Shown here: one piece after another, positions 365-48,289 of the stretch
Numbering within the stretch: the first letter of the stretch is position 1
How the letters are laid out: each line of letters begins with the position of its first letter
Origin: Planctomycetaceae bacterium
GTDB lineage: Bacteria > Planctomycetota > Planctomycetia > Planctomycetales > Planctomycetaceae
Direction of reading: 5' to 3'
Length of the DNA stretch: 49,511 bases
Assembly: GCA_021732845.1 (NCBI GenBank)
Contig: JAKFUF010000072.1
Span: 1 to 49,511 of the forward strand
The notes under the pieces: generated by a model
Told to the model about the DNA's origin: nothing
The model's database searches: none
Seen by the model: the letters and a program-made list of their open reading frames with translations, nothing else
Position numbers and translations under genes: made by a program

Positions 365-3300
365 TCAGCTCAACCCAAACTTCTTCAGCTTGCTGAAAAA
401 CGTGCTGCGGGGCAGGCCGAGGAGCCGCGCGGCTTCGGCCTTGTTGCCGGAGGTGCGGGCGAGGGCGTCGACCAGACGGGTGCGCTCTTCGGTGTTCTTT
501 CCCTCTCGGGTGGCGTGCGGCTCCCGCGCACCGTGAGAGGCAGGCATCGGGTGTGGCGAACCCGGAAGAGCCTGGGCAGGGCGGGGGCCGCCGCGGGTGG
601 TTTGGATTGGTTCATCATGGACGACATGCGGCGGCAGGTCGCGCAGTGTCACGTTCGGGCCGTCGGTGAGCACCACGGCCCGCTCGATCACATTCTCCAG
701 TTCACGAATGTTGCCGGGCCAGCGGTAGCGCACCAGCGCATGCAGGGCCTCGTCGTCCAAGTGGGTGATTGTCTTGCCCACCCGCTGCGCCGTGCGGCTC
801 AAAAAGTGCAGCGCCAGGTCCACGATGTCGTCGGAGCGTTCCCGCAGTGGCGGCAGCGTGATGCTGATCACGTTGAGCCGATAGAACAGGTCTTCGCGAA
901 AGCGGCCCTCTTGAATCAGTTGCTCCAGATTCTGATGCGTCGCCGCGATGAGTCGCACATCGACCTGGATCTCGTTGGAGCCGCCGACAGCCTCGAAGGT
1001 GCGTTCCTGCAGCACCCGCAGCAACTTGATTTGTGTCTCCAACGAGATGTCGCCGATTTCATCGAGAAATAGAGTGCCGCTATTCGCGAGTTCAAATCGG
1101 CCCATCCGGTCGCGGTGGGCACCGGTGAATGCACCTTTCACATGACCAAACAGTTCGCTTTCCAGCAGTCCGGGCGAGAGCGCGCCGCAGTGGACGCTGA
1201 TCATCGGGCCGGCACGCCGCGGACTGTTCTCATGGATCGCCTGGGCCAACAGCTCTTTTCCCGTGCCGCTTTCGCCACGCACCAGCACCGAGGACTGGCT
1301 GCTGGAGACCTTCCGCACCGTTTCCAAGACACCGACAATCGCCGGACTGTCACCACGGATCAGGCCCCGATGGAACGGTTCGGCCTCGGTCACGATGACG
1401 GGGTTCGCCCGGCTGGTGATTTCGGATTGCAGCATCGAAATCAGCCGCTGCTGCTCAACGATCCGCTCGGCTTTGAGCCTCACATCTTCGTTGACCCGCT
1501 TGAACGCAGCGTGGACCCGGGCACTATGGAGGGCAACGCTTGTGATCTGACTGAGTGCCGTGAGGAAAGCCAGATCTTCGGCGGCGAAGGGGGCTCCGTT
1601 GCGGCGGGCGGCCAGCAGCAACACGCCGGCCACCTCGCCCTCAACTTCCAGAGCGTGGACCAGGTCCACATCCATGGCCCCCATCGCTTCCAGAGAGGCC
1701 GCATCGCGTTGACCCGCCAGCATCACCGAGCTTTCCGCCGAAAGCCCGGACACCAGCGCGTGGCTCGCCGCCATGCGGACCGGCGCACGCCAGGCACCGA
1801 CGACGGCGATCATCCGGAAATCCCCGCTGTCTCCATCTTTCAAGTAGAGTGCTGCCCGTTCCGCGCCCAAAACGTCGCGGCAGGAGGCGAGCAGCCGGTC
1901 GGCCAGGGCCTCAGGCTCCAGCAGTCGCCCCGCCTCGCTCATGCGGAACAGCGCGCGGTCCAGCGGATACTTCTCGTGGAAGAAACGGCGGTCAACAATC
2001 TGCTGCAACCGGTCGCGAAACCACCCGAGCAACAACACCGCCAACATCACCGTGGCCACGCCCGCCCATGCATGTCCTGCCGCCGACATCTGCGACAACC
2101 CAGCCAGGCTGCTCAGGGCAATCGACACGCTGTAGGCGGCAGCGATCCCTAAACTCATGCCGTAATACAACATGCCGCGATGCAGCAACTGATCGACAAG
2201 CATCAGCTTATAGCGCGCGATGCCCACGGCGTAGGCGCACATGAACAACAGGCTGGCGGCGAACATGGGCAGGCTGGCCTGGCCGAGGGCAAACGCAACC
2301 TTGTCCGTGATCGCGAGATAGAGGGTGTAAGCCACGGGAATCCCCGCCAGCAGTCCCGCCCAAAGCAGCCATCGGACCTGATCGCGGACCAAGGGCGTGC
2401 GGGCCGTGACATAACTATGAAGCATTGCCACCAGTGCCCCGCCGAACTGCAGCGAGGCCATTCCCAAGCAGCAGGAGATGAGCTGGCCAAGAACGTCGAG
2501 AGTTCCTTGGACCTGCGCCGCCGGTCCGCCGTGGTTTGTCTGCCAATGCGCGTAAAGAATGACTGAAAGCATCGTTACGATCGCGATCACCGGGATCGTG
2601 TAGAGCACCACGAGCATCAGTCGCGGAAACCGCGACATCCAGCTTTTGCGCTCGGGGTAAACCAGAAAAAAGTGGAGCGTGGTGATCGGCAGCAGCAGGG
2701 CACAGACGATGAATGGGACCACCAGTGCTGGCGAACCGGAGATGAGCCACCAGTTGTAGCCACCAACAAACGCGCCGACGTTCACGATCGACATGACGAA
2801 AAACAGGCGCGCTGGCGTGTCGAAGGGTCGAGTCCACGCGGCGAGTGCCGCGATGGCGAAGATGCCAAGGTAGAGCAGAAACCAAGTAAAGCTCAGCGCG
2901 AGTTCGCCGGGCGGAAGAGATTGAACCTGAAGCCAGCAGCGGTGGATCACCGGATCGTTCGCGCCGCGAAACTTCACTTCCACCCACCGCTCCCCATCGC
3001 GGTAGTCCTTGACCACGACCGGAGGGAGTAGTTCACCCATCTCCAACATGGCCAAGTCATCATCAATGTGCCCGCCTGGGGGAATAGAGGTACTGCGCAA
3101 TCTGACGAGGCTGTAGGTGAAATCGAGAAATGTGTTGATGGGTTGGCGACCGATTTCCGTGATGACATCGCCGATTTTCGGCGCTCTTTCGCCATCGGCG
3201 CGAAAAACACTGGACACTAATTCAATGTTTGGGCCATCTCGTTCAGGGTCATCGATCAGACAACGCAGTCCCAAATCGGGTGTGGTTGCCACAAATCCCA

Positions 3301-3376
3301 AGACAAGAACGGAATACACCAACACCATGCCACCTAGGATGGCAAGGGACCATTTTTTGAACTCGGTGTATTTCAT
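365..3376 (-). CDS. Membrane-anchored sigma-54-dependent transcriptional activator (PDZ-like sensor, GAF, AAA+, Fis-type HTH)
   Basis: The 1003-residue protein is a bacterial enhancer-binding protein that would open sigma-54 promoters by ATP hydrolysis. Residues 12-30 form a first membrane segment. Residues 35-155 look like a periplasmic PDZ-like domain (GDVITEIGRQPI). About seven more hydrophobic segments follow between 158 and 452, then a GAF-like region near 490-620. The AAA+ core carries Walker A GESGTGKE (701-708), the sigma-54 contact loop GAFTGA (748-753), Walker B with LFLDEIGD (769-776) and the arginine-finger region FREDLFYRLNV (826-836). The C-terminal Fis-type helix-turn-helix spans about 963-1003. 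There is no receiver domain, so activation probably comes through the membrane part. The ATG at 3376 is chosen because it gives a complete N-terminal membrane anchor. The gene is divergent from a sigma-54 promoter at 3553, with an inverted repeat array between them that suits an upstream activating sequence. The ligand is unknown. Confidence 0.93.
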   Translation of the reverse strand: MKYTEFKKWSLAILGGMVLVYSVLVLGFVATTPDLGLRCLIDDPERDGPNIELVSSVFRADGERAPKIGDVITEIGRQPINTFLDFTYSLVRLRSTSIPPGGHIDDDLAMLEMGELLPPVVVKDYRDGERWVEVKFRGANDPVIHRCWLQVQSLPPGELALSFTWFLLYLGIFAIAALAAWTRPFDTPARLFFVMSIVNVGAFVGGYNWWLISGSPALVVPFIVCALLLPITTLHFFLVYPERKSWMSRFPRLMLVVLYTIPVIAIVTMLSVILYAHWQTNHGGPAAQVQGTLDVLGQLISCCLGMASLQFGGALVAMLHSYVTARTPLVRDQVRWLLWAGLLAGIPVAYTLYLAITDKVAFALGQASLPMFAASLLFMCAYAVGIARYKLMLVDQLLHRGMLYYGMSLGIAAAYSVSIALSSLAGLSQMSAAGHAWAGVATVMLAVLLLGWFRDRLQQIVDRRFFHEKYPLDRALFRMSEAGRLLEPEALADRLLASCRDVLGAERAALYLKDGDSGDFRMIAVVGAWRAPVRMAASHALVSGLSAESSVMLAGQRDAASLEAMGAMDVDLVHALEVEGEVAGVLLLAARRNGAPFAAEDLAFLTALSQITSVALHSARVHAAFKRVNEDVRLKAERIVEQQRLISMLQSEITSRANPVIVTEAEPFHRGLIRGDSPAIVGVLETVRKVSSSQSSVLVRGESGTGKELLAQAIHENSPRRAGPMISVHCGALSPGLLESELFGHVKGAFTGAHRDRMGRFELANSGTLFLDEIGDISLETQIKLLRVLQERTFEAVGGSNEIQVDVRLIAATHQNLEQLIQEGRFREDLFYRLNVISITLPPLRERSDDIVDLALHFLSRTAQRVGKTITHLDDEALHALVRYRWPGNIRELENVIERAVVLTDGPNVTLRDLPPHVVHDEPIQTTRGGPRPAQALPGSPHPMPASHGAREPHATREGKNTEERTRLVDALARTSGNKAEAARLLGLPRSTFFSKLKKFGLS

Positions 3377-3412
3377 ATTGGTGAACTTTGATCGATAATT
3401 TCGTCTCGGCGC

Positions 3413-3494
3413 TTCGGCGCTGAGGCGTTTCAGCGCCGAAATCGTTGAAACATTTTGAAATTTTCAGCGCCGAAGCGCTGAGTTTCGGCGCTGA
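3413..3494. promoter_or_regulatory. Four-copy inverted 11-mer array, candidate upstream activating sequence
   Basis: The 11-mer TCAGCGCCGAA occurs at 3430-3440 and 3464-3474, and its reverse complement TTCGGCGCTGA at 3413-3423 and 3484-3494. All four copies are exact, and two of them are extended further by CGCTGAG or CGGCGCT. The array sits 60-140 bp upstream of the sigma-54 promoter at 3553, the distance at which enhancer-binding proteins usually bind, and starts 37 bp before the activator gene. It most likely binds the adjacent activator and might also autoregulate it. Strong hairpins in RNA are an alternative explanation. Confidence 0.6.
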
Positions 3495-3552
3495 CATTCT
3501 GATTCTCTCCAACAAACCCCGCATTTTTCAATCGCACATGTTTATTTTTCAA

Positions 3553-3568
3553 TTGGCACGGAACCTGC
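3553..3568 (+). promoter_or_regulatory. Sigma-54 promoter for the structured RNA
   Basis: The plus strand reads TTGGCACGGAACCTGC, matching TTGGCACG-N4-TTGC at 11 of the 12 fixed bases with the exact 12-base GG-to-GC offset. The predicted start is near 3580. No long plus-strand reading frame follows; instead two long-stem structures and a T-run do. Confidence 0.72.
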
Positions 3569-3579
3569 ATATTCAAAAA

Positions 3580-3869
3580 ACCACCCAGCCGGATCTTTAG
3601 GGAGTGCATGCGGCGCTTTTTGAAGCGAAATACAAGCGACTGCAGCGACCCACTCTGCACCACCTGGCGTACACACCCAACGTACACCGCATGGCTCCCT
3701 AAAGATTCATTTACCTGACCCAGCCTGACCCTCAAGGAACTTCGTTCATCGCCTGACTCAAAGTCGCTCCTGCAATTCCGACCCACATGCAGGTGCCACA
3801 CTGTCTGACCTCGGTGAGACAAATTGAGTCCGGTCGACGAACGCCAAGTTCCTTGAGGGTTATTTTTTT
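3580..3869 (+). ncRNA. Candidate sigma-54-dependent structured RNA with two related domains and an intrinsic terminator
   Basis: Domain 1 (3593-3706) is closed by 12 bp (ATCTTTAGGGAG with CTCCCTAAAGAT) plus 7 bp (CATGCGG with CCGCATG), separated by a small internal loop. Inside are hairpins CGCTT-TTTG-AAGCG (3614-3627) and TGCAG-CGACCCACT-CTGCA (3641-3659), and a weak GTAC/GTAC pairing near 3669-3685. Domain 2 (3728-3860) is closed by 15 bp (ACCCTCAAGGAACTT with its complement at 3846-3860), a 2-nt bulge and 5 bp (CGTTC/GAACG). Inside are GACT-CAA-AGTC (3755-3765), CCTGCA-loop-TGCAGG (3769-3793) and TGTCT/AGACA (3802-3821). The middle hairpin of each domain shows CGACCCAC in its loop on a CTGCA-type stem, which suggests duplication. 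Seven Ts (3863-3869) follow the last stem, as in an intrinsic terminator. It matches no RNA family I know. A 36-codon frame at 3608-3718 is an alternative, but its start region lies in the closing stem. Structures were read by eye, not folded. Confidence 0.65.
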
Positions 3870-3934
3870 GCGCTGAGTCGCTGCGGTTCTCGCCGTTGGT
3901 TTGCCGAACTGCGGACGGGCTAGGAAAGCCCATC

Positions 3935-5032
3935 CTACGCAGACGTGCGAATTCCCCGGCGGGTCAGCAGATAGATGGCAAATGTGCCAAGCCAGTGGCC
4001 GCCAGCGTAATGCTCGCCCGTCACAGTCGGCAGACCGGCCGCTGCGTGTTCGCTGGCCAGTCCCATCAGAATCGCCTGTCGGGGGTCTGTCTCCTGTAAG
4101 GCGGCGGCAATCCCTTCCAGCATCCAGGAACGGCTCAAATTCAAGCCGTCCAAGTGCGCCAGTTTCCCATCGCTCCGGTCTCCACACGCGGCTGGCTTGA
4201 GCCACTGCGCCTGGCAGGCGTCTGGCAAAAACTCCGTCAGCCAGTTGGCGAAGTCGGGAGGGAGCAGAATTCGGCCCATCAGGTCGGCTTCCGCCAGACA
4301 GGGCGACAAAAAATCATGCCCGCTAGGTTCATAAAGAATGGGTGCCTTGCGGTCTTTGCCATGGAAATCCACCGACCGCTCGCAGAGCAACTGTTCAAAC
4401 TTCGTGTCTCCCACCGTCCGTGCCCAGTCAATCGCCAGCCCAAAGGCAAAGGCGGTTTGGCTGTGCTCACCGGACCGGATGGGGTGGGTCAGTTTGACTA
4501 CCCATTCTGAAATCCGTCGCACAGACAGCTCAACCAACGGTTGGAGACTGCTGAGCCACGCGGCGGTGTCTGGTTGTGGGGTTTCGGCGAACTCCTCGTG
4601 GAGTTCGGCATGCAGTTGAAGCAGCCACGCGAGGCCATACGGCCGCTCGAATCCGGCCCGCAGCGGCGGCGCGAGGTAGGCCAGCTCCGCTGCCAGATTG
4701 TCTGGCGAGAGACTCTTCCCCACGGCAGCCCGAGCATCTGTCACCCATGTGGGAGTTGGCTTGCCGGCAGGCTCCGCTGCGGCCGTTCGCCACAACCGCA
4801 CCAGCGACCAGTGGCCGTGCACTGCCGAGTGCCAATCGAAACTCCCAAAGAACGCTGGCGTCAGCTCTCGCGGCGGCCGCACATCGGCGTCGCTCTCCAA
4901 GGCATGCAGCAGATGATTCGGATACTCGCGATGAATACACCCGAGAACGAGCCGCGCCAACCGCTCGGCAATGCCTGGGATGAGTGTGTGGGTCGCGGGA
5001 CGGATGTGGCACCTAAAAATCGATGAGTGCAA
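3935..5032 (-). CDS. DUF2891 domain-containing protein
   Basis: The protein shows the DUF2891 pattern: an early REYPNHLLH segment, then PAFFGSFDWHSAVHGHW near residues 60-76, and conserved later blocks around FHGKDRKAPILYEPSGHDFLSPCLAEA and a C-terminal HYAGGHWLGTFAIYLL. The family is soluble, probably all-helical, and of unknown biochemical function. The start is uncertain. No ATG occurs in this frame before the conserved region; TTG at 5032 is the candidate used, with no good ribosome binding site, and the frame is closed by a stop further upstream. A non-ATG start or a sequence error is possible. The C-terminus and TAG stop lie in a GTAGGATGGGC stretch that forms a small hairpin with the downstream TAGGAAAGCCCATCC. 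It is convergent with the structured RNA. Confidence 0.85.
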   Translation of the reverse strand: MHSSIFRCHIRPATHTLIPGIAERLARLVLGCIHREYPNHLLHALESDADVRPPRELTPAFFGSFDWHSAVHGHWSLVRLWRTAAAEPAGKPTPTWVTDARAAVGKSLSPDNLAAELAYLAPPLRAGFERPYGLAWLLQLHAELHEEFAETPQPDTAAWLSSLQPLVELSVRRISEWVVKLTHPIRSGEHSQTAFAFGLAIDWARTVGDTKFEQLLCERSVDFHGKDRKAPILYEPSGHDFLSPCLAEADLMGRILLPPDFANWLTEFLPDACQAQWLKPAACGDRSDGKLAHLDGLNLSRSWMLEGIAAALQETDPRQAILMGLASEHAAAGLPTVTGEHYAGGHWLGTFAIYLLTRRGIRTSA

Positions 5033-7200: not shown

Positions 7201-9591
7201 TTACACGACGCCAATCGCGTCGATCTCGACGGTAATTCGCCTGGTCTCCTCGGCCGTCGCCAGCAGGGACTGATACGTGCCTAACTCCGACGGACTGAGG
7301 GGGCGATTGGTCCGGTCTTTGAGCCACTTGCGGCAGACCTGATATCCACCGACCTCGGTGGACCACAACGCGGAAGACACCCCTGCGATTCCACAGGCTG
7401 GGTTGAGCCAGGCGGTGTTGTTTTCGTGCTTCGGCCAGCCCGGCGAGATTCGAGTGTCTGGCAACTCTTTTTCCGTGCCGCCACCGACTAGCGGAAACGC
7501 AGACGTCCCATTGGATGGCTCGTCTCGCTGAAACTCGCCGCGCTGAAACCCAAGGTGCAGATTGACCAGCCGCAGCCCTAACACGCTCAGTCGCGACAAT
7601 CTTAGGGGCTCGTGCATCAAGGGAAGCCGCGGAAAGTCACTTTTGAGACCCGCCGCGTACCGTTGCCGATAGTCGGTCGAATAAAAGATGGCATAGACAC
7701 AGGTCACAAACCGCATCGCGCCGGCTTCCCCCGCGAAGTAGTCCTGGGCGCTCCGCGGCAGTGAGGACAATTCCAAATTTACCCGTGGCTCATCCCCCGC
7801 GAGCCACAGGGGAAACTGATAGTCTTGCCCCTTGTTGCCCAGATAGAACGTGCCGTGGCAACACAGCCCCTCACAAACCCCAAAGTGGGTGATCGTGTCC
7901 TGAACCACCTGCCGCATGGCGATCAACGAGACATTCTTGTGTCCCAACACATGCCGCGCCAGCTCGGGCCGCGGGCGTCCCAACAGGGCCGGGTCGTAAT
8001 ACAACCAGCGGACATCGAACGGCCGGTAGAGTACGCGCTGGAGCAAGGACTCACTCCACTCGTGTCCCGCGGCCTGAACCTGCGAGCGCAGTTCCTCTGG
8101 TGTGAACCCAATGAACACGCTGTCCGCGCTGGTCTTCACACCGGGCGAAGAGAACGGCATGAGTTCTTTCAGACTCGGAAACGCCAAATACTCCCGAGGG
8201 ACCATCGCCCGGGGAGCCAGCCAGTAGTCAGGCGACTCGGGGGTGATGACTACTCCAGAAAGGTCGTCGTCGGACGGAGCCTCCAGTCGTGCCAGCTTGT
8301 CGGAACGAAAGCCCTGCCAGCGCACATACGAAACCTTGGTGCCTGCAGGCGACCCCACGAGGACCGCCACCCCCTGCGTGATGTCGAAGACGTTCTGGTC
8401 ACCCGTGGTGCCACCGCGTGTATCGCCGCCTAAGTCGATAATCTCTTGGTGCGGAAACGCCTCCAGCAATTGCTGCCGCAGTCCGCGATGCAGCATCCCA
8501 TCCAGATACGACCGGTTGGTCACATACCCCAATGTTGCGAGGCCGCTTCGTCTGGCGTAGTGCAGCGCCAACACAAAGAACTTGACATAGTCATCGTTGA
8601 GCGGTTGCCGATTCTTCTCGTGCTTGACCGCCTGCTTGACCGGCTGGCAGAGTTCCTCGATCCACGGGTTTTGGTTCTGCGAGCTGATCCGGTAGGGAGG
8701 GTTTCCCAAGATCACTGTTGGGACAAGCGTGACCTTGGCATCGGCCACGGCAGGCGCGACGGTCAAAGGTAATTCCAAACTGTTCGTCTGAAACAACTGC
8801 CACTCAAGCGGCGTTTCAAACGCATAGCCAGTCTCCGCCAACTTCAATAACAATTGCGTCCGAGAGATGGCGAGCGGGGTCGCCATCAGCTCGAACCCCG
8901 TCATCCGTTTGACGAAGCCTGGAACGAATAAGTTCCACTGAGACCTAAGTTCTGCGCCGGCATGACACTTCTGGAATGTCTGCCAGACACGATGGATCAC
9001 GGCAATTAATAACGTCCCTGTTCCCAACGCCGGGTCGAGGATCTGCACAAACGGTTCATCGGGCGACACGCCCTTCGGCGCGGGCCGTGCAAATCGGGTC
9101 GCCACATCGGCCCAGCAGGTGAGATCGGCCAATCCACGCTCCAACCGAAGTTGGGTGCGAAGTGCGTCATCAGCGCGTTCGACGATGAACTGAGCCACCG
9201 GTGCCGGGGTGAAAAAGACACCGCGTTTGAGTCGTGTTCGTGGGTCAAATGCGTGGAGAAAGAGCTCAAAGAACCGGAGGCCGAACTGCTCACCGGAATG
9301 CGTCCGCTGAAAATCGACGAGCAACTCCGCCAGCGAACACTGGTTGAGCCACTCCGCGAATCCGCCAATCACCGCCTGTCCCGCATCGTTCAGTTCCCCA
9401 ATCCTTGGTGGCTCAAACTTGCCAGCCGCGGTATGTTCGAGCCACGCGCAAACGGTGAGGCAGACGGCCGTCTGCGCTACATCGCTGGCCGTCGCCTCTT
9501 CAGCCTCAACAGCCGCCAAACGCTGCAGTCCCCGAGCCGTGGCTGCGGCCTCGCGCACGAAGGCGTCGGCGGTCGTCGGCGGAATCGTCAT
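7201..9591 (-). CDS. N6-adenine DNA methyltransferase with ISP-type C-terminal region
   Basis: The 796-residue product has the gamma-class N6-adenine methyltransferase signature: SAM-binding motif I DPALGTGT (about 186-193) and catalytic motif IV NPPY (about 297-300). Before them is GVFFTPAPVAQFIV, the helical-domain lead-in typical of type I and type ISP/IIG enzymes. The second half, with LGYVTNRSYLDGMLHRGLRQ, IIDLGGDTRGG and later YRPFDVRWLYYDPALLGRPR, resembles the C-terminal region of ISP-type enzymes that recognises DNA. No nuclease motif or helicase domain is seen and no restriction partner is adjacent, so it may be solitary, act with a distant partner or belong to a defence module. The ATG at 9591 is chosen because it overlaps the miaA stop as ATGA; a longer frame continues into miaA. 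The coupling to miaA is unexpected. Confidence 0.88.
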   Translation of the reverse strand: MTIPPTTADAFVREAAATARGLQRLAAVEAEEATASDVAQTAVCLTVCAWLEHTAAGKFEPPRIGELNDAGQAVIGGFAEWLNQCSLAELLVDFQRTHSGEQFGLRFFELFLHAFDPRTRLKRGVFFTPAPVAQFIVERADDALRTQLRLERGLADLTCWADVATRFARPAPKGVSPDEPFVQILDPALGTGTLLIAVIHRVWQTFQKCHAGAELRSQWNLFVPGFVKRMTGFELMATPLAISRTQLLLKLAETGYAFETPLEWQLFQTNSLELPLTVAPAVADAKVTLVPTVILGNPPYRISSQNQNPWIEELCQPVKQAVKHEKNRQPLNDDYVKFFVLALHYARRSGLATLGYVTNRSYLDGMLHRGLRQQLLEAFPHQEIIDLGGDTRGGTTGDQNVFDITQGVAVLVGSPAGTKVSYVRWQGFRSDKLARLEAPSDDDLSGVVITPESPDYWLAPRAMVPREYLAFPSLKELMPFSSPGVKTSADSVFIGFTPEELRSQVQAAGHEWSESLLQRVLYRPFDVRWLYYDPALLGRPRPELARHVLGHKNVSLIAMRQVVQDTITHFGVCEGLCCHGTFYLGNKGQDYQFPLWLAGDEPRVNLELSSLPRSAQDYFAGEAGAMRFVTCVYAIFYSTDYRQRYAAGLKSDFPRLPLMHEPLRLSRLSVLGLRLVNLHLGFQRGEFQRDEPSNGTSAFPLVGGGTEKELPDTRISPGWPKHENNTAWLNPACGIAGVSSALWSTEVGGYQVCRKWLKDRTNRPLSPSELGTYQSLLATAEETRRITVEIDAIGVV

Positions 9592-10565
9592 GCCAACAGA
9601 CCATCTGCAGGGGCCGATCGCGACCGTTGCGACAGCAGGACGATCCGGTCGGCAATCAGCGCCGGCGTGTCCTTCTCCGTGACCGGAACGGCGGTGCATT
9701 CCTCCAGGTTGCGAAACCAGGTGTACTGCCGCTTGGCGAACTGCCGCGTGTGTTCCACCGTCTGCCGAATTGCAACTTCATAACTTAGGCGACCCGCCAG
9801 GTGCTCCAGCAGTTCCCGATAGCCCACCGCCTGTCCCGCCGTGCGGCTCAGTGGCTGCGGGGCGGAAGCCAGCCTGCGCACCTCGTCCAGCCAGCCCTCG
9901 TCCAGCATCTGCCGCACCCGAGTCTCGATCCGCTCATGGAGCCACGCGCGATCGGGCTCCAGCCAATACACGTTTTGCGGCCGCTCGGGCCGCGGTCCTT
10001 CCTGCTGCTGTTCCGACAGCGTCCGTCCCGTGATCTCATGCACTTCCAACGCCCGAATCACTCGGCGCACGTCATTCGGATGCAGCCGTGCCGCGGTCAC
10101 GGCATCGACCGTCGCCAGTTTCGCATGCAGCGACTCTGGTCCATGAACCCGCGCCTCTTCCTCCCACGCGTGCCGCAGCTCCCAGTTTGCGGCGGGCCCC
10201 ACAAACAACCCGCGCAGCACCGTTCTCAAATACAGCCCCGTCCCGCCGACAAACAGCGGCACCCGCCCGCGATCCACAATCGCCTGACAGCATTGTTCCG
10301 CCGCCTGCAGATAATCCGCCAGACTGTATTCCTCATGTGGCTCAAGAATATCAATCAGATGATGCGGCACCCGCTCGCGCGTGGCCCGATCCGGCTTCGC
10401 CGTCCCCACATCCATGCCGCTATACAGCGACATGGAATCGAGCGCCACGACCTCCGCATTCAACCGCTCCGCCAACTCCACGCTCACCGCCGTCTTCCCC
10501 GCCGCCGTCGGCCCCGCCAAGAACCAGCAGCGGGCAAGCAGGGCAGGGGAGAGGGCGACAAGCAT
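9588..10565 (-). CDS. miaA: tRNA dimethylallyltransferase
   Basis: The 325-residue protein transfers a dimethylallyl group to N6 of A37 in tRNAs that read UNN codons. It has the P-loop GPTAAGKT near the N-terminus, the ALDSMSLYSGMDVGTAKP substrate segment, the LFVGGTGLYLRTVL segment and the C-terminal EHTRQFAKRQYTWFRN motif that contacts the anticodon stem. The length is usual for MiaA. ATG at 10565 is preferred; a TTG two codons earlier is possible. Its stop overlaps the start of the methyltransferase gene, so the two are probably co-transcribed and translationally coupled. Confidence 0.97.
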   Translation of the reverse strand: MLVALSPALLARCWFLAGPTAAGKTAVSVELAERLNAEVVALDSMSLYSGMDVGTAKPDRATRERVPHHLIDILEPHEEYSLADYLQAAEQCCQAIVDRGRVPLFVGGTGLYLRTVLRGLFVGPAANWELRHAWEEEARVHGPESLHAKLATVDAVTAARLHPNDVRRVIRALEVHEITGRTLSEQQQEGPRPERPQNVYWLEPDRAWLHERIETRVRQMLDEGWLDEVRRLASAPQPLSRTAGQAVGYRELLEHLAGRLSYEVAIRQTVEHTRQFAKRQYTWFRNLEECTAVPVTEKDTPALIADRIVLLSQRSRSAPADGLLA

Positions 10566-12334: not shown

Positions 12335-13603
12335 CTAGTGTTGTCTTTTGCTCCGCAAGACTACCGACGGGAAACTGCGGTGCCAATCGACAGCCATCGG
12401 GGGATGATGCGGGGGCCGTTGTCGGACCACGATCGCGGCCTCTCGCGGAGCGAGAGGCGACACTACGCAGTGGATCGCGCCGCCCCGACCCCACCGAGTT
12501 CGTCTCGGTGGTGAACGGGCCTGTGCACTACGCCGCCCGCCGCCACCGACAGGCGGCGCAAGACAGGCTGATCTTGTGGCTTCGGCTTGCGCCGAAGCGT
12601 GTGGACTGAAGCCCAAGCCACGGGCGCTGAGAGGGGGCGCGGCAGCAACTGGGGTTGAGCGTTCAACTTTCAAAATTCGCGCGATGTTCAGCCGGTCCAG
12701 ACCATCAACGGGACCGCCAATTTTGAAATCTGAACACCCGACCCCTGCTTCACCGGCGAGCGGTCGCGACCGACGTTCAGATTGGCGGGCACAGACAGGG
12801 GGCGCGGTTTCACTGGTCGTTCTCGTGACAGGGGGCGCAAGGCTGGCCATTGAGGTGTGCTCCAACTCGCCGCAGACAGGCGGCGCTCCCCCGGCACCCT
12901 CATCAGCGTCAACCAACATCCGTGGCTCATCTCCATTTTCCTCCGGCACAACGACCGCCCCTTCCACTGGCCGCATCTGGCCGTTGTTGTCACCAACTTC
13001 TGCCGCACTCTCCGTGACCGTCGGAGCTGCCGCGAGCTGCTCTGCCCACAGGTCGTGTTGCCAGCCCCGGCGGCACTTGGCGAAGTACGGCCCCTCTGGA
13101 TCCAAGTGGCTCAAGCAGTACATCACCGCCCACGGCTCGCCGCGCTCCAGCGCGACGACCAGCCGCCGGTTCAGTTCCTCTGCCAAATCCGGCCGTGGCT
13201 CACCCTGCGCGACCGGTTGAGCCACGCGATGAGAGACAACCGGCACCAACGCCACCGGCTTTCCCGCGTCTGCCGGAACAGCGGTCTTAACGCCCGCCCG
13301 CGCACAAAACTGCAGCGCCCACCCCTCGCCAGCCGACACCGCCGCTTGCAGCCGTTCACTCGCCTTTTGGACCAAGAAGTCCCGCCCGGCATCCCTCCAC
13401 GTCCGCAGCCGCTTCGAGCGGGCCACCCGCTGCACCAACGATGCCAGAGTCACCCCCAAATGGATGGCGGCGCAGGCCAGCACCCCAAAATTCTGACACA
13501 GCGCAATAAACAACGGATCCTCCGTCACCAAACGGTCAGCCTCGGCCTGCCGTCTGGCTGCAACCCCCGCCCTATAGCCAACGCTGAAAGCGTCCATTTT
13601 CAT
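12335..13603 (-). CDS. Terminase-small-subunit-like DNA-binding protein, paralogue 1
   Basis: The protein is about 423 residues. Its first third has a helix-turn-helix-like region (ALCQNFGVLACAAIHLGVTL) followed by LQAAVSAGEGWALQFCARAG and, later, VVALERGEPWAVMYCLSHLD. This A-x(3)-GE-x-WA-x(3)-C module matches the ALEDGAPWAIKYCLKTFG module of the gene at 28478-29755 and recalls small terminase-like proteins of phages. The C-terminal half is low complexity with repeated APPV, coded by GACAGGGGGCGC-type direct repeats, and its last 90 residues run into interspersed repeats, so that part may not be functional. The start is uncertain: ATG at 13603 gives MKMDAFSVGY; earlier starts are possible. 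No phage structural genes are nearby. Confidence 0.55.
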   Translation of the reverse strand: MKMDAFSVGYRAGVAARRQAEADRLVTEDPLFIALCQNFGVLACAAIHLGVTLASLVQRVARSKRLRTWRDAGRDFLVQKASERLQAAVSAGEGWALQFCARAGVKTAVPADAGKPVALVPVVSHRVAQPVAQGEPRPDLAEELNRRLVVALERGEPWAVMYCLSHLDPEGPYFAKCRRGWQHDLWAEQLAAAPTVTESAAEVGDNNGQMRPVEGAVVVPEENGDEPRMLVDADEGAGGAPPVCGELEHTSMASLAPPVTRTTSETAPPVCARQSERRSRPLAGEAGVGCSDFKIGGPVDGLDRLNIARILKVERSTPVAAAPPLSARGLGFSPHASAQAEATRSACLAPPVGGGGRRSAQARSPPRRTRWGRGGAIHCVVSPLAPREAAIVVRQRPPHHPPMAVDWHRSFPSVVLRSKRQH

Positions 13604-13867
13604 CCCCAATGTACTAATGCACCTCGGTTCGTATTTCAGCACGATACGGACGTTCAGTGATGGCGTCAAGCACAAAGGCGAATAGTTTGAAAAATTTATG
13701 ACAAAGCCATGCGGTCTGTGTCATGGCGAAGGTGGCAAAACGAGTTCCCATTCGGCTGGCTGAAGTCGTCACGCACCTCATATTGTCGCAATCTCCCACT
13801 CGCGCTAAACTTCCGCCGCGGGCTGTCGCCGGGAGCGGCGGCCAGGAATGGGGCTTGAGGATCAGGG

Positions 13868-28471: not shown

Positions 28472-28516
28472 CGTGGCTCAGCAGGAGCATCGCCCTCTTG
28501 CGGCATCGCCCTGCTG
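28472..28516 (+). repeat. GSAGASPS-type repeat at the 3' end of a gene, copy 5
   Basis: CGTGGCTCAGCAGGAGCATC followed by GCCCTCTTGCGGCATCGCCC and TGCTG is nearly the same as the copy at 7148-7191. The stop codon of the terminase-like gene lies inside it, so the residues EQQGDAARGRCSC come from the repeat. Confidence 0.7.
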
Positions 28517-29755
28517 TTCGGCAGCGTGATCTTCCGCGTCGACCTGCGACCGTTCCACATCGGGATCGAGCGATTTGGCGACCTCATTCCCCGCCCATTC
28601 CAACCGCAGTGGGACGCGGCCCGGGCCGGCTGGGTCTGAGCCACGGGGGTTGTTGTCGGCGACCGACTGGTCGTCTTCGACAACGGCGGTTCTCTCACCG
28701 CGCCGGTGGCTCAGGTTCAGTTCTCGCTGACTTTGCGCCCCCTGCGAAGCGGTTTTTTGTGCCGTCAACGGTCGCACATCCTTGATAACCCGAATCTCCA
28801 ACTCGCCCGATCCGTCATTTGTCTGACCCAAACTTTGCGCCCCCTCGACCTCCTGAACGATCATCGTCTGCGACGGTTCGCTCTCAAGCGAGGTGCCGAC
28901 CTCGTGCGCTTCAACAGTCTGTCGATCGACAGCGTTCTCCGCGGGTTGATCAACGGTCACCTCCTCATCCTCCGATCGATCAACCGCATACGGGTCCTCG
29001 ATCAGCATCACCAGGTCGCCCAGAGTGCTGTCATCAATGGTTGTCCCATCGCCGGCCACCCACAGTTCGTTGTGCTCGGTGACGTCGTAATAGGTGGTCG
29101 TCTCCGGCGTCCTGCGGATCGGATCCAGCATGAGTTCCTTGGGAAATGTCGGCCGGCCGGCATGCTCCTTGGGAGGTGCGTACCCTTTGGACGCGCCGAA
29201 TGTCTTCAGGCAGTACTTGATCGCCCACGGAGCGCCGTCCTCCAGTGCGTCCAGGAGGTTTCGGTGGCTACCGTCCAGTTTCCGACCACGCTCCTCATCG
29301 AGTTCGATCGGAGCCTCGGAGCTGCGTTTTTTCCGCGATCGCCCACCCATGGCCTTGCCCGCCTCCCCGACCAACGTGGCTTCACTCCCCCTCGCCGCCT
29401 CCGGGCCACCAGAGCCTGCCTGAGCCACGCCGGCGTCTTCCCCGCATGGGCGTGGCTCGGGATCAAACAGCCCATCCGTCCGTCCCAGCGTCTTCAGGAC
29501 AAACAGGATGGCCCAGGGCTTTTTCTCAGCCAGTGCATCGTCCAGCCCCGCCTCGGCGTAATCGAAGCACATCCGCCGGGACGAGTCGCGGATGTACTGC
29601 AACTGCGGGTTCTTCCGGATCCGCTCGGACACCAACGTCCGGCTGACCCCCAGCCTGTCCGCCGCCTCCGTCACCACCCCCCGGCACTTCCAGAGCGCGT
29701 CGCCAACTTCCGTATCCATCACCTTCAACCGCCGCGCCTTGACCTGCCGAATCAT
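28478..29755 (-). CDS. Terminase-small-subunit-like DNA-binding protein, paralogue 2
   Basis: The protein of about 425 residues has an N-terminal helix-turn-helix (CRGVVTEAADRLGVSRTLVS) followed by LQYIRDSSRRMCFDYAEAGL and ALAEKKPWAILFVLKTLGRT. The second module, ALEDGAPWAIKYCLKTFGAS, repeats after about 90 residues. This HTH plus 'PWAI.F.LKT.G' order is that of small terminase-like proteins from phages, and the gene at 12335-13603 is a diverged paralogue. Residues from about 230 on are acidic, poorly conserved and end in repeat-derived sequence. ATG at 29755 is used; a longer frame starts at 29800. No phage genes are nearby, so domestication or a mobile gene are the likely options. Confidence 0.62.
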   Translation of the reverse strand: MIRQVKARRLKVMDTEVGDALWKCRGVVTEAADRLGVSRTLVSERIRKNPQLQYIRDSSRRMCFDYAEAGLDDALAEKKPWAILFVLKTLGRTDGLFDPEPRPCGEDAGVAQAGSGGPEAARGSEATLVGEAGKAMGGRSRKKRSSEAPIELDEERGRKLDGSHRNLLDALEDGAPWAIKYCLKTFGASKGYAPPKEHAGRPTFPKELMLDPIRRTPETTTYYDVTEHNELWVAGDGTTIDDSTLGDLVMLIEDPYAVDRSEDEEVTVDQPAENAVDRQTVEAHEVGTSLESEPSQTMIVQEVEGAQSLGQTNDGSGELEIRVIKDVRPLTAQKTASQGAQSQRELNLSHRRGERTAVVEDDQSVADNNPRGSDPAGPGRVPLRLEWAGNEVAKSLDPDVERSQVDAEDHAAEQQGDAARGRCSC

Positions 29756-30124
29756 GATGAATTCCCGTACCGATCCCCGACATGATACACGCGTACACAT
29801 TTCATTTGACGTGCGAGGAGGTGTCGATCGAAGGGGAAATCTCTGTTATTTTCTTATTTTGTTCAAAATAGTGCTGAACTGTCCTGGCGCCAGTTTTTCA
29901 AAAAATCAGCCGGAACGCGTTAGCGTCCGGTTCCCGATTTTGCGCAGACACCGCTATCTGTCACGGCCAGAACCGGGGCCTAACGGCCTCCGGCTGATTG
30001 AGCTTCGCCATTTTCAAAACTTGGCCAGCCCCGCCCAAGTTGTCGGCTCGCATCACGTCACTTGGCATTCGTGGTAGATTGCGCTGTGCTGCGCACACCC
30101 TAAAACTCCGACGCGAGTGGCATT
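29756..30124. other. Intergenic region with a palindromic repeat
   Basis: The only structure seen is CAGCCGGAACGCGTTAGCGT-CCGGTTC (29907-29933) facing GAACCGGGGCCTAACGGCCT-CCGGCTG (29970-29995). This is the inner part of the MITE-like elements at 6928 and 49082 without their terminal repeats. No gene is seen. Confidence 0.6.
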
Positions 30125-45291: not shown

Positions 45292-46011
45292 ATGTGGACT
45301 TCACGCTTGCGGCAACCGGAAGTGATGGATCAGCCGGGGCTGCTGCCCCAGGCGCATCATGTCGCGCTGCGGGTGCTGCAGCGGGTAAATTGGCTGAGCC
45401 GCACGCCCACCGTCATTTGGAAAGAGATCGCCCGGCATGCCAGGACTGACCGGCCGCTCAGGGTGTTGGATCTGGCCTGTGGCGGCGGCGACGTGGCACT
45501 GCAGATTTCCCGGCGAGCCCTGCATGAGGGGATCTCGCTGTCGGTCACCGGTGCTGACATGAGCGAGACTGCCATTGGGTTTGCCCGCGAGCAGGCAGCC
45601 CGCCATCCGGAACTCAAGGGCCGGCTGGAATATGTCACGCTGGACGTGCTGCGCGACCCGTTTCCAGCCGACTTCGACATCATTTATTGCACGCTGTTCC
45701 TGCATCACCTCGACGAACCCGAAGTGGTGCATGTGCTGCGCAAGATGCACGAAGCAGCGCGGGTTTCGGTCTTGGTGGATGACCTGCGGCGGACGGGGTT
45801 GGGATATGCCATGGCGTGGGTGGTGTCCCGAACGCTGACCCGCTCGCCAGTGGTGCGCGTCGACGGGCCGATATCCGTCCGCGGGGCCTTCACCATCAAG
45901 GAGGCCGTGACTCTCGCCCAGCAGGCCGGCTGGGAGGGCGTCGAGGCCCACAGCCACTGGCCCCAGCGGTTCTTGATGCGCTGCTCGCGTGATAATCCGG
46001 TGCCAGCGTGA
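45292..46011 (+). CDS. SAM-dependent methyltransferase of the type III PKS operon
   Basis: The 239-residue class I methyltransferase has the SAM-binding LDLACGGGDVAL (59-70), the acidic ADMSE after the second strand and DIIYCTLFLHHLDEPEVVHV in place of motif II. It begins RQPEVMDQPGLLPQAHHVAL, a lead-in usual in such operons. Its stop overlaps the GTG of the flavoprotein gene. By analogy with srsB of Streptomyces it may methylate the alkylresorcinol made by the PKS; this is inferred from operon structure only. Confidence 0.85.
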   Translation: MWTSRLRQPEVMDQPGLLPQAHHVALRVLQRVNWLSRTPTVIWKEIARHARTDRPLRVLDLACGGGDVALQISRRALHEGISLSVTGADMSETAIGFAREQAARHPELKGRLEYVTLDVLRDPFPADFDIIYCTLFLHHLDEPEVVHVLRKMHEAARVSVLVDDLRRTGLGYAMAWVVSRTLTRSPVVRVDGPISVRGAFTIKEAVTLAQQAGWEGVEAHSHWPQRFLMRCSRDNPVPA

Positions 46012-47198
46012 ATGGCGGGCACGACGCGCGGGCAGTCGCTTCCACGGCATGGGAGGCGGTCGTCATTGGAGCCGGGCCGGCCGGGGCGGTGCTGTCTCAC
46101 CAACTCGCCCGGCGTGGCTGGAAGGTGCTGCTGGTCGAGCGGAAGACGTTCCCGCGCGACAAGGTCTGCGGCGGGTGCCTCAATGGCTTGGCGATTTCCG
46201 CGCTGGAGGCTGCGGGGATGCCGACACTCTGTGACGATCTCCATGCGCCGCACCTGTCTCGCCTGAGGTTGAGGCAGGGGGGAAGGAGCATCACCATCAG
46301 CGCGCCCATGGGCCGGGCCGTGCTCCGCCGCAGTTTTGACGCGGCCCTGGTCCAGCAGGCGCAGAGCGTTGGAGTGACTTTTCTTCCTGCAACAACGGCG
46401 CATGTACTCCCTGGAGAGGCCAACAGCGACGCCCCGCTGAGGGTCCGCCTGCAAGGTTTGCCGAGCGCAGGTGCCCAAGAGTTCGAAGTCGAGTCGAACC
46501 TGGTCTTCGCCGCGGACGGACTCGCTCATCCCAGCCTGGAGAACCTGCCGGGCTTTCACACAGCCGTGAAGCCCACCAGCCGGGTTGGACTGGGTGCCTC
46601 CTGGAAGGTGGAAGACTGGCCGGATGCGGCCGACTGTGTCTCCATGTCAGTGGGGCGACATGGCTATGTCGGTGCGGTCCGCACGGCTGAGGGCGAGATC
46701 AATGTGGCGGTGGCGGTGGATCCGGCGAAACTGAGAGCCACGGGTCCGCGGGAGATGGTCCGCGACATCTGGCGCGAGGCGGGGGCAAACTTCCCAGATC
46801 CGCCCGAAGAGATTCACTGGCTCGGCACGCCGCCATTGACGCGTCGGACCACACCCCTGGCGATGCGGCGGCTGTTTCTGCTGGGAGACGCGGCGGGGTA
46901 TGTCGAACCCTTCACTGGTGAAGGCATGGCCTGGGCGCTGGCAGCGGCCCTGGCGGTGGTGCCCCTGGCCGAACAGGCCCGAGAGCAGTGGGACGACCGG
47001 TTGAGTGCACGCTGGGAGCAGACCTTTGCCAAAATTGTGCGGCGGCGGCAATGGGTCTGCCGGGCGGTCGCCATGATTGTTCGCCGCCCATGGTTGTCCG
47101 CCGGCGCGATCCGGCTGGTGCAGCAGTTTCCACAGTGCACTGAAACCCTCATTCTTCGACTCAATCGCAGCCTCGATCACGCGGAACTCGTGCCATGA
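46008..47198 (+). CDS. FAD-dependent oxidoreductase of the type III PKS operon
   Basis: The 396-residue flavoprotein of the geranylgeranyl-reductase/hydroxylase superfamily has VIGAGPAGAVLSHQLARRGW (19-38), the RDKVCGGCLNG segment that is typical of the group, LVFAADGLAHPSL, and RLFLLGDAAGYVEPFTGEGM that contacts FAD. GTG at 46008 overlaps the methyltransferase stop, and its own stop overlaps the PKS start. In srs-like pathways the equivalent enzyme hydroxylates the resorcinol ring to give a quinone, so an oxidising role here is plausible. Confidence 0.87.
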   Translation: MNGGHDARAVASTAWEAVVIGAGPAGAVLSHQLARRGWKVLLVERKTFPRDKVCGGCLNGLAISALEAAGMPTLCDDLHAPHLSRLRLRQGGRSITISAPMGRAVLRRSFDAALVQQAQSVGVTFLPATTAHVLPGEANSDAPLRVRLQGLPSAGAQEFEVESNLVFAADGLAHPSLENLPGFHTAVKPTSRVGLGASWKVEDWPDAADCVSMSVGRHGYVGAVRTAEGEINVAVAVDPAKLRATGPREMVRDIWREAGANFPDPPEEIHWLGTPPLTRRTTPLAMRRLFLLGDAAGYVEPFTGEGMAWALAAALAVVPLAEQAREQWDDRLSARWEQTFAKIVRRRQWVCRAVAMIVRRPWLSAGAIRLVQQFPQCTETLILRLNRSLDHAELVP

Positions 47199-48289
47199 CT
47201 CCCCTCCCGTTTCTGGGTCTCGGCACAGCCGTCCCCCCGTTCTCCATTCAGCAGCCGGCCGCGGCCGAACTTGCCTCGCGGCTGAAGGTCGCACGCGGCG
47301 AAGAACGCCTCGTGTCCATCGCCTATCGCCGATCGGGCGTCAGTTCACGGCACTCGGTTGTGCTGGAAGGTCCCGTCACGGACGAAGTCCCACAGTCGTT
47401 CTATCCGGCCGCATTGGATGATTTGGATCTTGGCCCCACCACCGGCGAGCGGATCCGCCGCTACGAACAGGAGGCGGCGAAACTGGCGGGGGCCGCCGTG
47501 ACCAATGCCCTGCGCGACTCGGGCGTCGCCGCGGCAGAAATCACGCACTTGATCACGGTATCGTGTACCGGCTTTTCGGCACCCGGCTTCGACCTGGAAC
47601 TGATGCGGGACTTCAAGCTGCGGCCCGGCGTGTCCCGGACGCATCTCGGGTTCATGGGCTGCCACGGATTGTTAAACGGGCTGCGGGTGGCAAGCGCCTA
47701 CCACGCCGCCGACCCCTCCGCCAAAGTGCTGGTGGTGGCCTTGGAAGTCTGCACCGTGCACCAGCAGTACACCAGCGACCCTGGACAGATTATCGCCAAC
47801 GCGCTGTTTGCCGACGGAGCCGCGGCGATCGTGTGTGGCACACCGGCTTCTGGGAGTCCAGCGGGCTGGCAACTCTTGCGCAACGGTTCGCATGTCGTCG
47901 CCGATTCAGAAGACGCGATGTCCTGGCGGATCGGCGACCACGGCTTCGCGATGACGCTCGCCCCCTCCGTCCCAAAACTGATCGGCGAACTCCTCCGCCC
48001 GTGGCTCACCGACTGGCTGCGAAAGTCCGGGCTGCAACTGGGTGACATCCGGCACTGGGCCGTACACCCCGGCGGTCCCAAGATTCTCCAAGCCGTGCAG
48101 GATTGCCTGAACCTGCCAGCGAACGCTCTCGCGACATCGCACCGGGTGTTATCGGAGTTCGGCAACATGTCCTCGCCGACGCTGGCGTTCATCCTGCAAC
48201 GGCTTCAACGCACGCCAACCGCGGGGCCTTGCGTCATGCTCGGGTTTGGTCCCGGTCTGACCATTGAGGCGGCACTGTTGGAGGGATGA
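47195..48289 (+). CDS. Type III polyketide synthase (chalcone/stilbene synthase family)
   Basis: The 364-residue enzyme has the full catalytic triad Cys156 (LGFMGCHGLLNGLR), His291 (WAVHPGGPKIL) and Asn324 (FGNMSSPTLAFIL), plus SCTGFSAPGFDLELM and the final MLGFGPGLTIEAAL. Bacterial members extend a fatty-acyl or other starter with malonyl-CoA to pyrones or resorcinols. ATG at 47195 overlaps the flavoprotein stop as ATGA. Product type cannot be read from sequence; an alkylresorcinol or alkylpyrone is the best guess from the operon partners. Confidence 0.94.
   Translation: MTPLPFLGLGTAVPPFSIQQPAAAELASRLKVARGEERLVSIAYRRSGVSSRHSVVLEGPVTDEVPQSFYPAALDDLDLGPTTGERIRRYEQEAAKLAGAAVTNALRDSGVAAAEITHLITVSCTGFSAPGFDLELMRDFKLRPGVSRTHLGFMGCHGLLNGLRVASAYHAADPSAKVLVVALEVCTVHQQYTSDPGQIIANALFADGAAAIVCGTPASGSPAGWQLLRNGSHVVADSEDAMSWRIGDHGFAMTLAPSVPKLIGELLRPWLTDWLRKSGLQLGDIRHWAVHPGGPKILQAVQDCLNLPANALATSHRVLSEFGNMSSPTLAFILQRLQRTPTAGPCVMLGFGPGLTIEAALLEG

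Follow-up and report, generated by a model that had tools for sequence, protein, structure and literature searches.

Tandem copies of an apparently undescribed candidate small regulatory RNA divergent from a sigma-54 activator gene in a planctomycete bacterium

The window, a stretch of 49,511 nucleotides from a Planctomycetaceae bacterium, contains two homologous RNA domains (D1 and D2) on the plus strand of a 558 bp intergenic gap between the gene of a sigma-54 activator (EBP) and a DUF2891 gene. D1 and D2 appear to be two tandem units of a small regulatory RNA which occurs in planctomycete bacteria and apparently has not been described before. It is highly probable that this RNA forms a module together with a sigma-54 promoter and the divergently oriented EBP. 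An initial annotation of the DNA had described two RNA domains of shared architecture; the candidate sigma-54 promoter, the divergent EBP gene, the probable EBP sites, the terminator-like end, the shared start ACCCAGCC and the matched differences between the outer stems were absent from it. The coordinates of all features are summarized in Table 1.

Table 1. Features of the candidate RNA locus and its neighbours (positions within the window).
Feature	Position	Strand	Basis or remark
EBP gene, divergent from the RNA: N-terminal membrane region, GAF, AAA+, Fis-type HTH_8	365-3376	-	Pfam
Palindrome array, TCGGCGC/GCGCCGA cores at 3406, 3414, 3433, 3467, 3485	3405-3495	.	Probable EBP upstream activating sequence
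Candidate sigma-54 -24/-12 promoter TGGCACGGAACCTGCA	3554-3569	+	Score 18.2 of 19.2, our own weighting of a sigma-54 consensus
RNA domain D1	3583-3713	+	R1 86.4 bits, E 1.8e-15 in genome (D1 in R1 training set); fold
D1 closing stem	3591-3604 with 3695-3708	+	Pair probabilities 0.94-1.0
D1 apical loop CGACCCAC	3646-3653	+	Sequence; pair probabilities
RNA domain D2	3718-3870	+	R1 46.4 bits, E 1e-6 (D2 outside R1 training set)
D2 closing stem	3726-3742 with 3846-3862	+	Pair probabilities 0.73-1.0
D2 apical loop CGACCCAC	3779-3786	+	Sequence; pair probabilities
U-tract TTATTTTTTT at the end of the D2 stem, intrinsic-terminator-like transcript end	3861-3870	+	Sequence
DUF2891 gene, convergent neighbour, outside the module	3935-5032	-	Pfam DUF2891 3.5e-118

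Fold and shared sequence of the two domains

The common architecture proposed by the initial annotation was largely borne out by folding. Positions 3580 to 3869 yielded -121.1 kcal/mol compared to -74 +/- 4.8 kcal/mol for 200 shuffles (z -9.8), and the minimum free energy structure consisted of two separate domains with both closing stems kept. These stems of 14-17 bp were nearly certain in the ensemble. Both domains open with ACCCAGCC, a direct repeat (3583-3603 and 3718-3738) is 76% identical, and the differences between the outer stems of D1 and D2 are matched changes on both sides. The octamer CGACCCAC, previously assigned to the loops of two hairpins, was indeed found between TGCA arms in both domains. 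In D2 it is unpaired with a probability of 0.96-1.0. The prediction for D1 places a single G3647-C3653 pair inside the loop; the unpaired probabilities are 0.11 and 0.15 at these two positions and 0.98-1.0 at the six others. By its number the octamer does not stand out, as it occurs 5 times in the window versus 3.0 times expected and 15 of 100 shuffles reach 5; what is not due to chance is that it sits in both of the homologous hairpins and is conserved across genera. A short first hairpin of 4-5 bp had been claimed for both domains. It was observed for D1 (CGCTT/AAGCG) and is lacking in the best fold of D2, where forcing the candidate GACT/AGTC costs 8.7 kcal/mol (-60.6 versus -69.3 kcal/mol). 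Each domain has one ACCCA site at its 5' end and another in its apical hairpin; D1 carries an extra one ('CACCCAA').

The terminator-like stem encloses about 100 nt, unlike a classical short terminator. A terminator consensus scan did not report the U-tract of D2; the loop of this stem lies far above the loop limit of 8 used by the scan. In the alignment of members, neither D1 nor D2 ranks among the six sequences nearest to the other (D2 shares 58.7% identity with locus L036, D1 51.9% with L059), which suggests that the doubling may be old or that one copy may be fast-evolving.

Distribution and conservation of the RNA

A BLAST search with the whole region against 59 genomes gave no match besides the region itself. 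Searching 170 genomes of the host's family with the loop pattern yielded 38 match rows, part of which was inspected individually. In addition to the two matches of the window, six loci (L012, L013, L014, L017, L021 and L032) were accepted as members. Five of them carry a 5' ACCCAGC or GCCCAGC, a closing stem and a U-rich tail; L013 is truncated at the contig start. The matches L002, L006, L007, L010, L015, L026 and L028 were rejected, as 5' box, closing stem and tail were missing; the inspection included a translation in the case of L002 alone. The stretches viewed for L016, L018 and L030 did not contain the match, and the R1 hits of these genomes (see below) were located on other contigs.

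The covariance model R1 was built from six training sequences, namely D1 and the five loop-pattern loci other than L013. D2 had been misplaced by MAFFT, was consequently left out and served as hold-out. R1 matched 92 of the 170 family genomes with one match per genome, and two matches were found solely in the genome of the window. The held-out D2 was recovered at E = 1e-6 in a whole-genome search, in agreement with the earlier view of homologous domains. With the second model, R2, 66 of 297 genomes of the class were matched, and with the third, R3, 31 of 391 genomes of the phylum, all of them from the host's family. R3 gave no match in five listed genomes of this family (G029, G007, G060, G024 and G152). 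A scan of named genomes returned ten stretches, of which seven were members with at least 61.7 bits; the other three (two halomonads and one Anaerolineales, at most 17.7 bits) were taken as chance matches. The seven are metagenome-assembled genomes labelled Planctomycetaceae or Planctomycetota. All contain the promoter element (16.5-18.2), and a divergent long open frame was found at the place of the EBP in six, the remaining one being cut by the locus end. We are aware that some named records duplicate G genomes (L070 is identical to L152), so that not all of the seven are independent.

Homology, covariation, strand and loop conservation were computed, the latter three for a set of 55 distinct members derived from 58 sources of our choice. 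Near-duplicates and the member loci L047, L058, L060, L068, L071, L073, L075 and L078 were left out of the 58 sources, as were L116-L121 and L123-L128. L111, L114 and L115 were detected only by the unfiltered model and had no match in the 58-source step; the identical row L152 was removed before counting. In the 55-member alignment, which was fitted to the structure, 93.1% of 1036 cells were paired and changes on both sides were observed in 19 of 20 pairs. The covariation was 0.598, while shuffles gave 0.238. Slid partners did not exceed 0.138, and they reached no more than 58.3% paired cells and 10 pairs with changes on both sides. The first training alignment, A4 (MAFFT, six sequences), was not fitted to the structure; the structure was superimposed by us, and the 3' stem of L021 stands two columns out of register. 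Here, 11 of 20 pairs had changes on both sides, with a covariation of 0.500 versus 0.275.

A central ACCCA is present in 54 of the 55 members versus 7.4 expected after shuffling, in line with the selection on the loop proposed earlier, while the stems covary. Checking related genomes for loss of the loop, as the initial annotation had suggested, revealed that it is kept in nearly all members and absent from L147 and from the non-members L116 and L117. Of the 54 members having this ACCCA, 34 leave it fully unpaired in their best single fold and 20 pair some of it, so that by prediction its exposure is not certain in every member. The 5' box, defined by us as CCCA[GCA]C, was found in 48 members and is lacking in 7. 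The U-tail is seen in the final 9 nt, which contain 6.2 T on average. In 21 of the 55 members a G-U closes the stem as the outermost pair; on the opposite strand it would be A-C. Since these pairs, the promoter elements and the U-tails all point to the plus strand, we read it as the RNA strand.

Tandem copies with strong inverted repeats might also be parts of a DNA-level or mobile element (transposon palindromes, a recombination site or a bidirectional terminator without regulatory RNA), and structured single-stranded DNA elements covary too. Such an element is very unlikely here, given the single hit per genome, the fixed place in 30 genomes compared, the lack of a second place for D1 or D2 in the own genome by BLAST or R1, the G-U pairs on one strand and the sigma-54 element at the 5' end. 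Even less probable, to a degree that it hardly needs consideration, is a diverged housekeeping RNA, above all 6S, with which the RNA shares a rod-like fold, a length of about 150 nt and the occurrence once per genome. The 6S model RF00013 matched places other than this RNA in 50 of 61 family genomes, 39 of them above the cut-off, and the match of the own genome (G000:C223:4067-4260), which lies apart from D1 and D2, contradicts this identity. The latter match has 42.6 bits and is below the Rfam cut-off of 46.4, as are those of ten other family genomes. Rfam 15 gave no match at the gathering score in the whole window, which also speaks against a housekeeping RNA. Up to an E-value of 10, three matches were obtained for 3377-3934, all far under the cut-off, and for five relative loci (E up to 1) a single one, RNase_MRP with 19.1 bits (cut-off 50), located outside of the RNA.

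Promoter element, upstream palindromes and the divergent EBP gene

The promoter-like element, the palindromes and the linkage to the EBP gene were computed as well, whereas transcription and EBP control are what we infer from them. The transcription start is expected near 3580, just before ACCCAGCC. Elements were scored by our own weighting of a sigma-54 consensus. Using a threshold of 16 of 19.2, which was set afterwards as the lowest observed value, all 30 loci had an element within 200 nt upstream on the RNA strand, compared to one of the 30 on the reverse strand and 108 of 3000 shuffles. This 30-locus set, which was also used for the palindromes, does not include D2. In the 55-member set, which overlaps with the 30 loci and credits D2 with the promoter of D1, the element precedes 54 members and fails for L150. 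Its distance to the CCCAGC box ranges from 24 to 139 nt, D2 and L150 excepted. For L034-L063 the range is 29 to 139 nt. Members with a distant element have room for a leader, and by eye several of those among L034-L063 show a palindrome just before the CCCAGC box.

These strand data also bear on a cis-acting leader of the EBP mRNA on the minus strand, i.e. a riboswitch or attenuator upstream of 3376. The reverse complement upstream of the EBP start folds better (-136.9 versus -119.0 kcal/mol for a 298-nt stretch), and a U-run follows D1 on the minus strand. Nevertheless, we rejected such a leader as most improbable, because promoter element, U-tail and outermost G-U pairs are all found on the strand opposite to the EBP gene.

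Within 330 nt before the RNA, each locus contains 2-6 GCGCCGA/TCGGCGC cores, most of which lie on that side of the promoter which faces the EBP gene. Of the 30 loci, 27 carry GCGCCGAAA upstream of the RNA and 21 carry CAGCGCCGA; for the latter, shuffles gave 0.14 on average, and of 29 control stretches taken downstream one contained it. Our consensus of the palindrome units is TTCGGCGCYGAA. Its exact form occurs with more than one site only at this locus of the own genome, the other four sites being single; the reversed control gave 5. The palindromic TTCGGCGCYGAA-like units are likely binding sites of the EBP.

The EBP matched the Pfam families Sigma54_activat (1.1e-69), AAA_lid_14, HTH_8 and GAF; it carries GAFTGA in the AAA+ domain and several hydrophobic segments in the N-terminal region. 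In four of five EBP homologues read (L068, L070, L072 and L076) GAFTGA is replaced by GAFTDA. A predicted model of the N-terminus, with a poor mean pLDDT of 61.2, shows a beta-rich part and many helices. Pfam yielded no match for the N-terminus at E up to 1, and the eight PDB matches with E<=0.001 were of phytochrome, sensor-kinase or GAF type, none naming a membrane sensor fold. The N-terminus may resemble sensors which combine PDZ with a multi-helix region, ComP being an example. Since no receiver domain was detected by Pfam, the EBP looks like a one-component, membrane-anchored sensor.

The RNA is divergent from the EBP gene for 31 of 31 RNA hits in 30 genomes, with a gap of 180-451 bp. Homologues of the N-terminal half of the EBP were found in 90 of 148 class genomes, in a listing which omits 38 genomes without match, and 39 rows came from the host's family. 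The linkage count refers to the 30 of these 39 which had an R2 hit. Upstream of the other nine EBP genes, the unfiltered model detected the RNA in seven cases (E 8.5e-10 to 1.9e-3). Even this model gave no credible hit for L116 and L117, both from genus g8 of the host's family. These two loci possess the EBP, a sigma-54 element and a long hairpin with U-rich tail, the loop region being GCCTGAC without ACCCA; the hairpin is possibly a variant of the RNA. The EBP is common outside the host's family. Among 11 such loci, L122 (family f14) had the sole clear divergent RNA hit (E 8.6e-6). L123 (f9) reached E 0.15 and shows a promoter element and, by eye, CCCAGC and a TACCCAT loop; no RNA hit was obtained for the other nine. 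In a separate scan of 29 first-round loci, the nearest upstream frame encoded mutually homologous divergent proteins in 25, the exceptions being L038 (cut at the contig start), L041 (a small nearer frame was taken in place of a divergent one), L042 and L043.

Four features of a sigma-54-dependent sRNA paired with an EBP are present at the sequence level, i.e. a predicted -24/-12 element, an adjacent EBP gene, repeated upstream palindromes and a terminator-like end. Such sRNAs are a kind of regulator and not a sequence family.

Proposed mode of action and known systems

In the proposed mechanism, one plus strand gene would give rise to a small regulatory RNA of approximately 290 nt, reaching from the sigma-54 promoter to the U-tract and composed of two tandem copies of a domain that is single in the relatives found. 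The EBP would sense a signal, bind to the palindrome array and open the sigma-54 promoter. The divergent arrangement argues for the small RNA as the main output of the EBP. Leaving the last step aside, an EBP-controlled, sigma-54-dependent small RNA is the probable product of this locus. There are likewise good grounds to expect that the RNA acts in trans, presumably via its ACCCA sites. Trans action and the last step belong to the interpretation. For the last step our first choice is a decoy titrating an RNA-binding protein, similar to CrcZ, with base-pairing to mRNAs, similar to Qrr, as a close second.

The decoy is preferred for two reasons: ACCCA occurs more than once per domain, with a further doubling in the present RNA, and long antisense targets show no enrichment. 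We give such a role an even chance. Base-pairing under the same gene organisation and control would employ GACCCAC and 5' CCCAGCC as seeds against GGGUC/UGGGU in mRNAs. The conserved loop sequence speaks for this reading, and sigma-54 EBPs are known to drive pairing RNAs, as in the case of Qrr1 and LuxO (PMC3843225). Perfect antisense matches to the consensus loop of the relatives, GTGGGTCAGGCTG, counted only over the full 13 nt, were found 64 times in 170 genomes (85 matches minus 21 which by coordinates are the RNA itself), compared to 87 for the reversed-pattern control. This lack of an excess weighs against pairing, which we consider a serious possibility of somewhat less than even probability; it gives the decoy no positive support either. 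The complete one-component signalling circuit would unite a membrane sensor and a sigma-54 activator in one protein, with apparently one promoter and a decoy RNA as sole output, which titrates an RNA-binding protein via paired ACCCA sites. It would be kept through the planctomycete family and in at least one further family, the tandem second domain having doubled the dose in this lineage. Taken as a whole, this picture is tentative and holds with perhaps one chance in three.

Several systems with comparable parts are known. The Vibrio gene qrr1 is sigma-54-dependent and divergent from luxO, and a LuxO-type EBP has a response-receiver domain. Phospho-LuxO induces qrr1, which represses litR (PMC3843225), and the likeness to the present locus is an sRNA produced on demand by a sigma-54-type activator. 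In contrast, the EBP described here has no receiver by Pfam and possesses a membrane region and GAF instead. With 295.7 bits it stays below the cut-off of 800 of the NCBIfam model for LuxO. In Pseudomonas, CrcZ acts through repeated motifs. According to PMC6296734, the EBP CbrB directly activates RNAs sequestering Crc, several of which may exist per species, so that CrcZ/CrcY-CbrB resembles our proposal in having an EBP-activated, protein-sequestering RNA as output; the same source describes CbrB as two-component with non-palindromic subsites. The present locus differs in its palindromic sites, its apparently membrane-anchored EBP and its ACCCA motif. GlmY and GlmZ are under sigma-54 control and presumably unrelated to the present RNA. 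In E. coli one of the two is a decoy and the other a pairing RNA (PMC7073468).

No description of this RNA was found in the accessible portions of the open-access literature, including PMC12316311, PMC2864571, PMC9029176, PMC8103513, PMC3843225, PMC12369376 and PMC6296734. PMC12316311 covers sigma-54 regulons including Planctomycetia, and the words sRNA and small RNA are absent from its main text. The Rhodopirellula-1 motif (Weinberg 2010) is a candidate RNA of Planctomycetes and Proteobacteria without Rfam number, scored '?' as RNA and 'y' as cis-regulatory (PMC2864571). The present RNA may be identical to this motif. For the PVC group as a whole, a review from 2022 puts the number of distinct annotated sRNAs at 8 (PMC9029176). 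Few planctomycete small RNAs are on record, and the present one would add a widely conserved example with its control machinery visible. It would also offer a handle on the signal sensed by the membrane activator, and its conserved ACCCA sites make a search for an RNA-binding protein not yet described worthwhile.

Elsewhere in the window, two long open frames on the minus strand (12335-13675 and 28478-29800) had no Pfam match at E up to 1e-5. The protein encoded at 7201-9699 (minus strand) combines a Type ISP specificity domain with a weak match to Eco57I methylase and is possibly a restriction-modification enzyme. At 46008-48289 (plus strand) a FAD-dependent oxidoreductase is found beside a chalcone/stilbene-synthase-like protein which may be a type III polyketide synthase.
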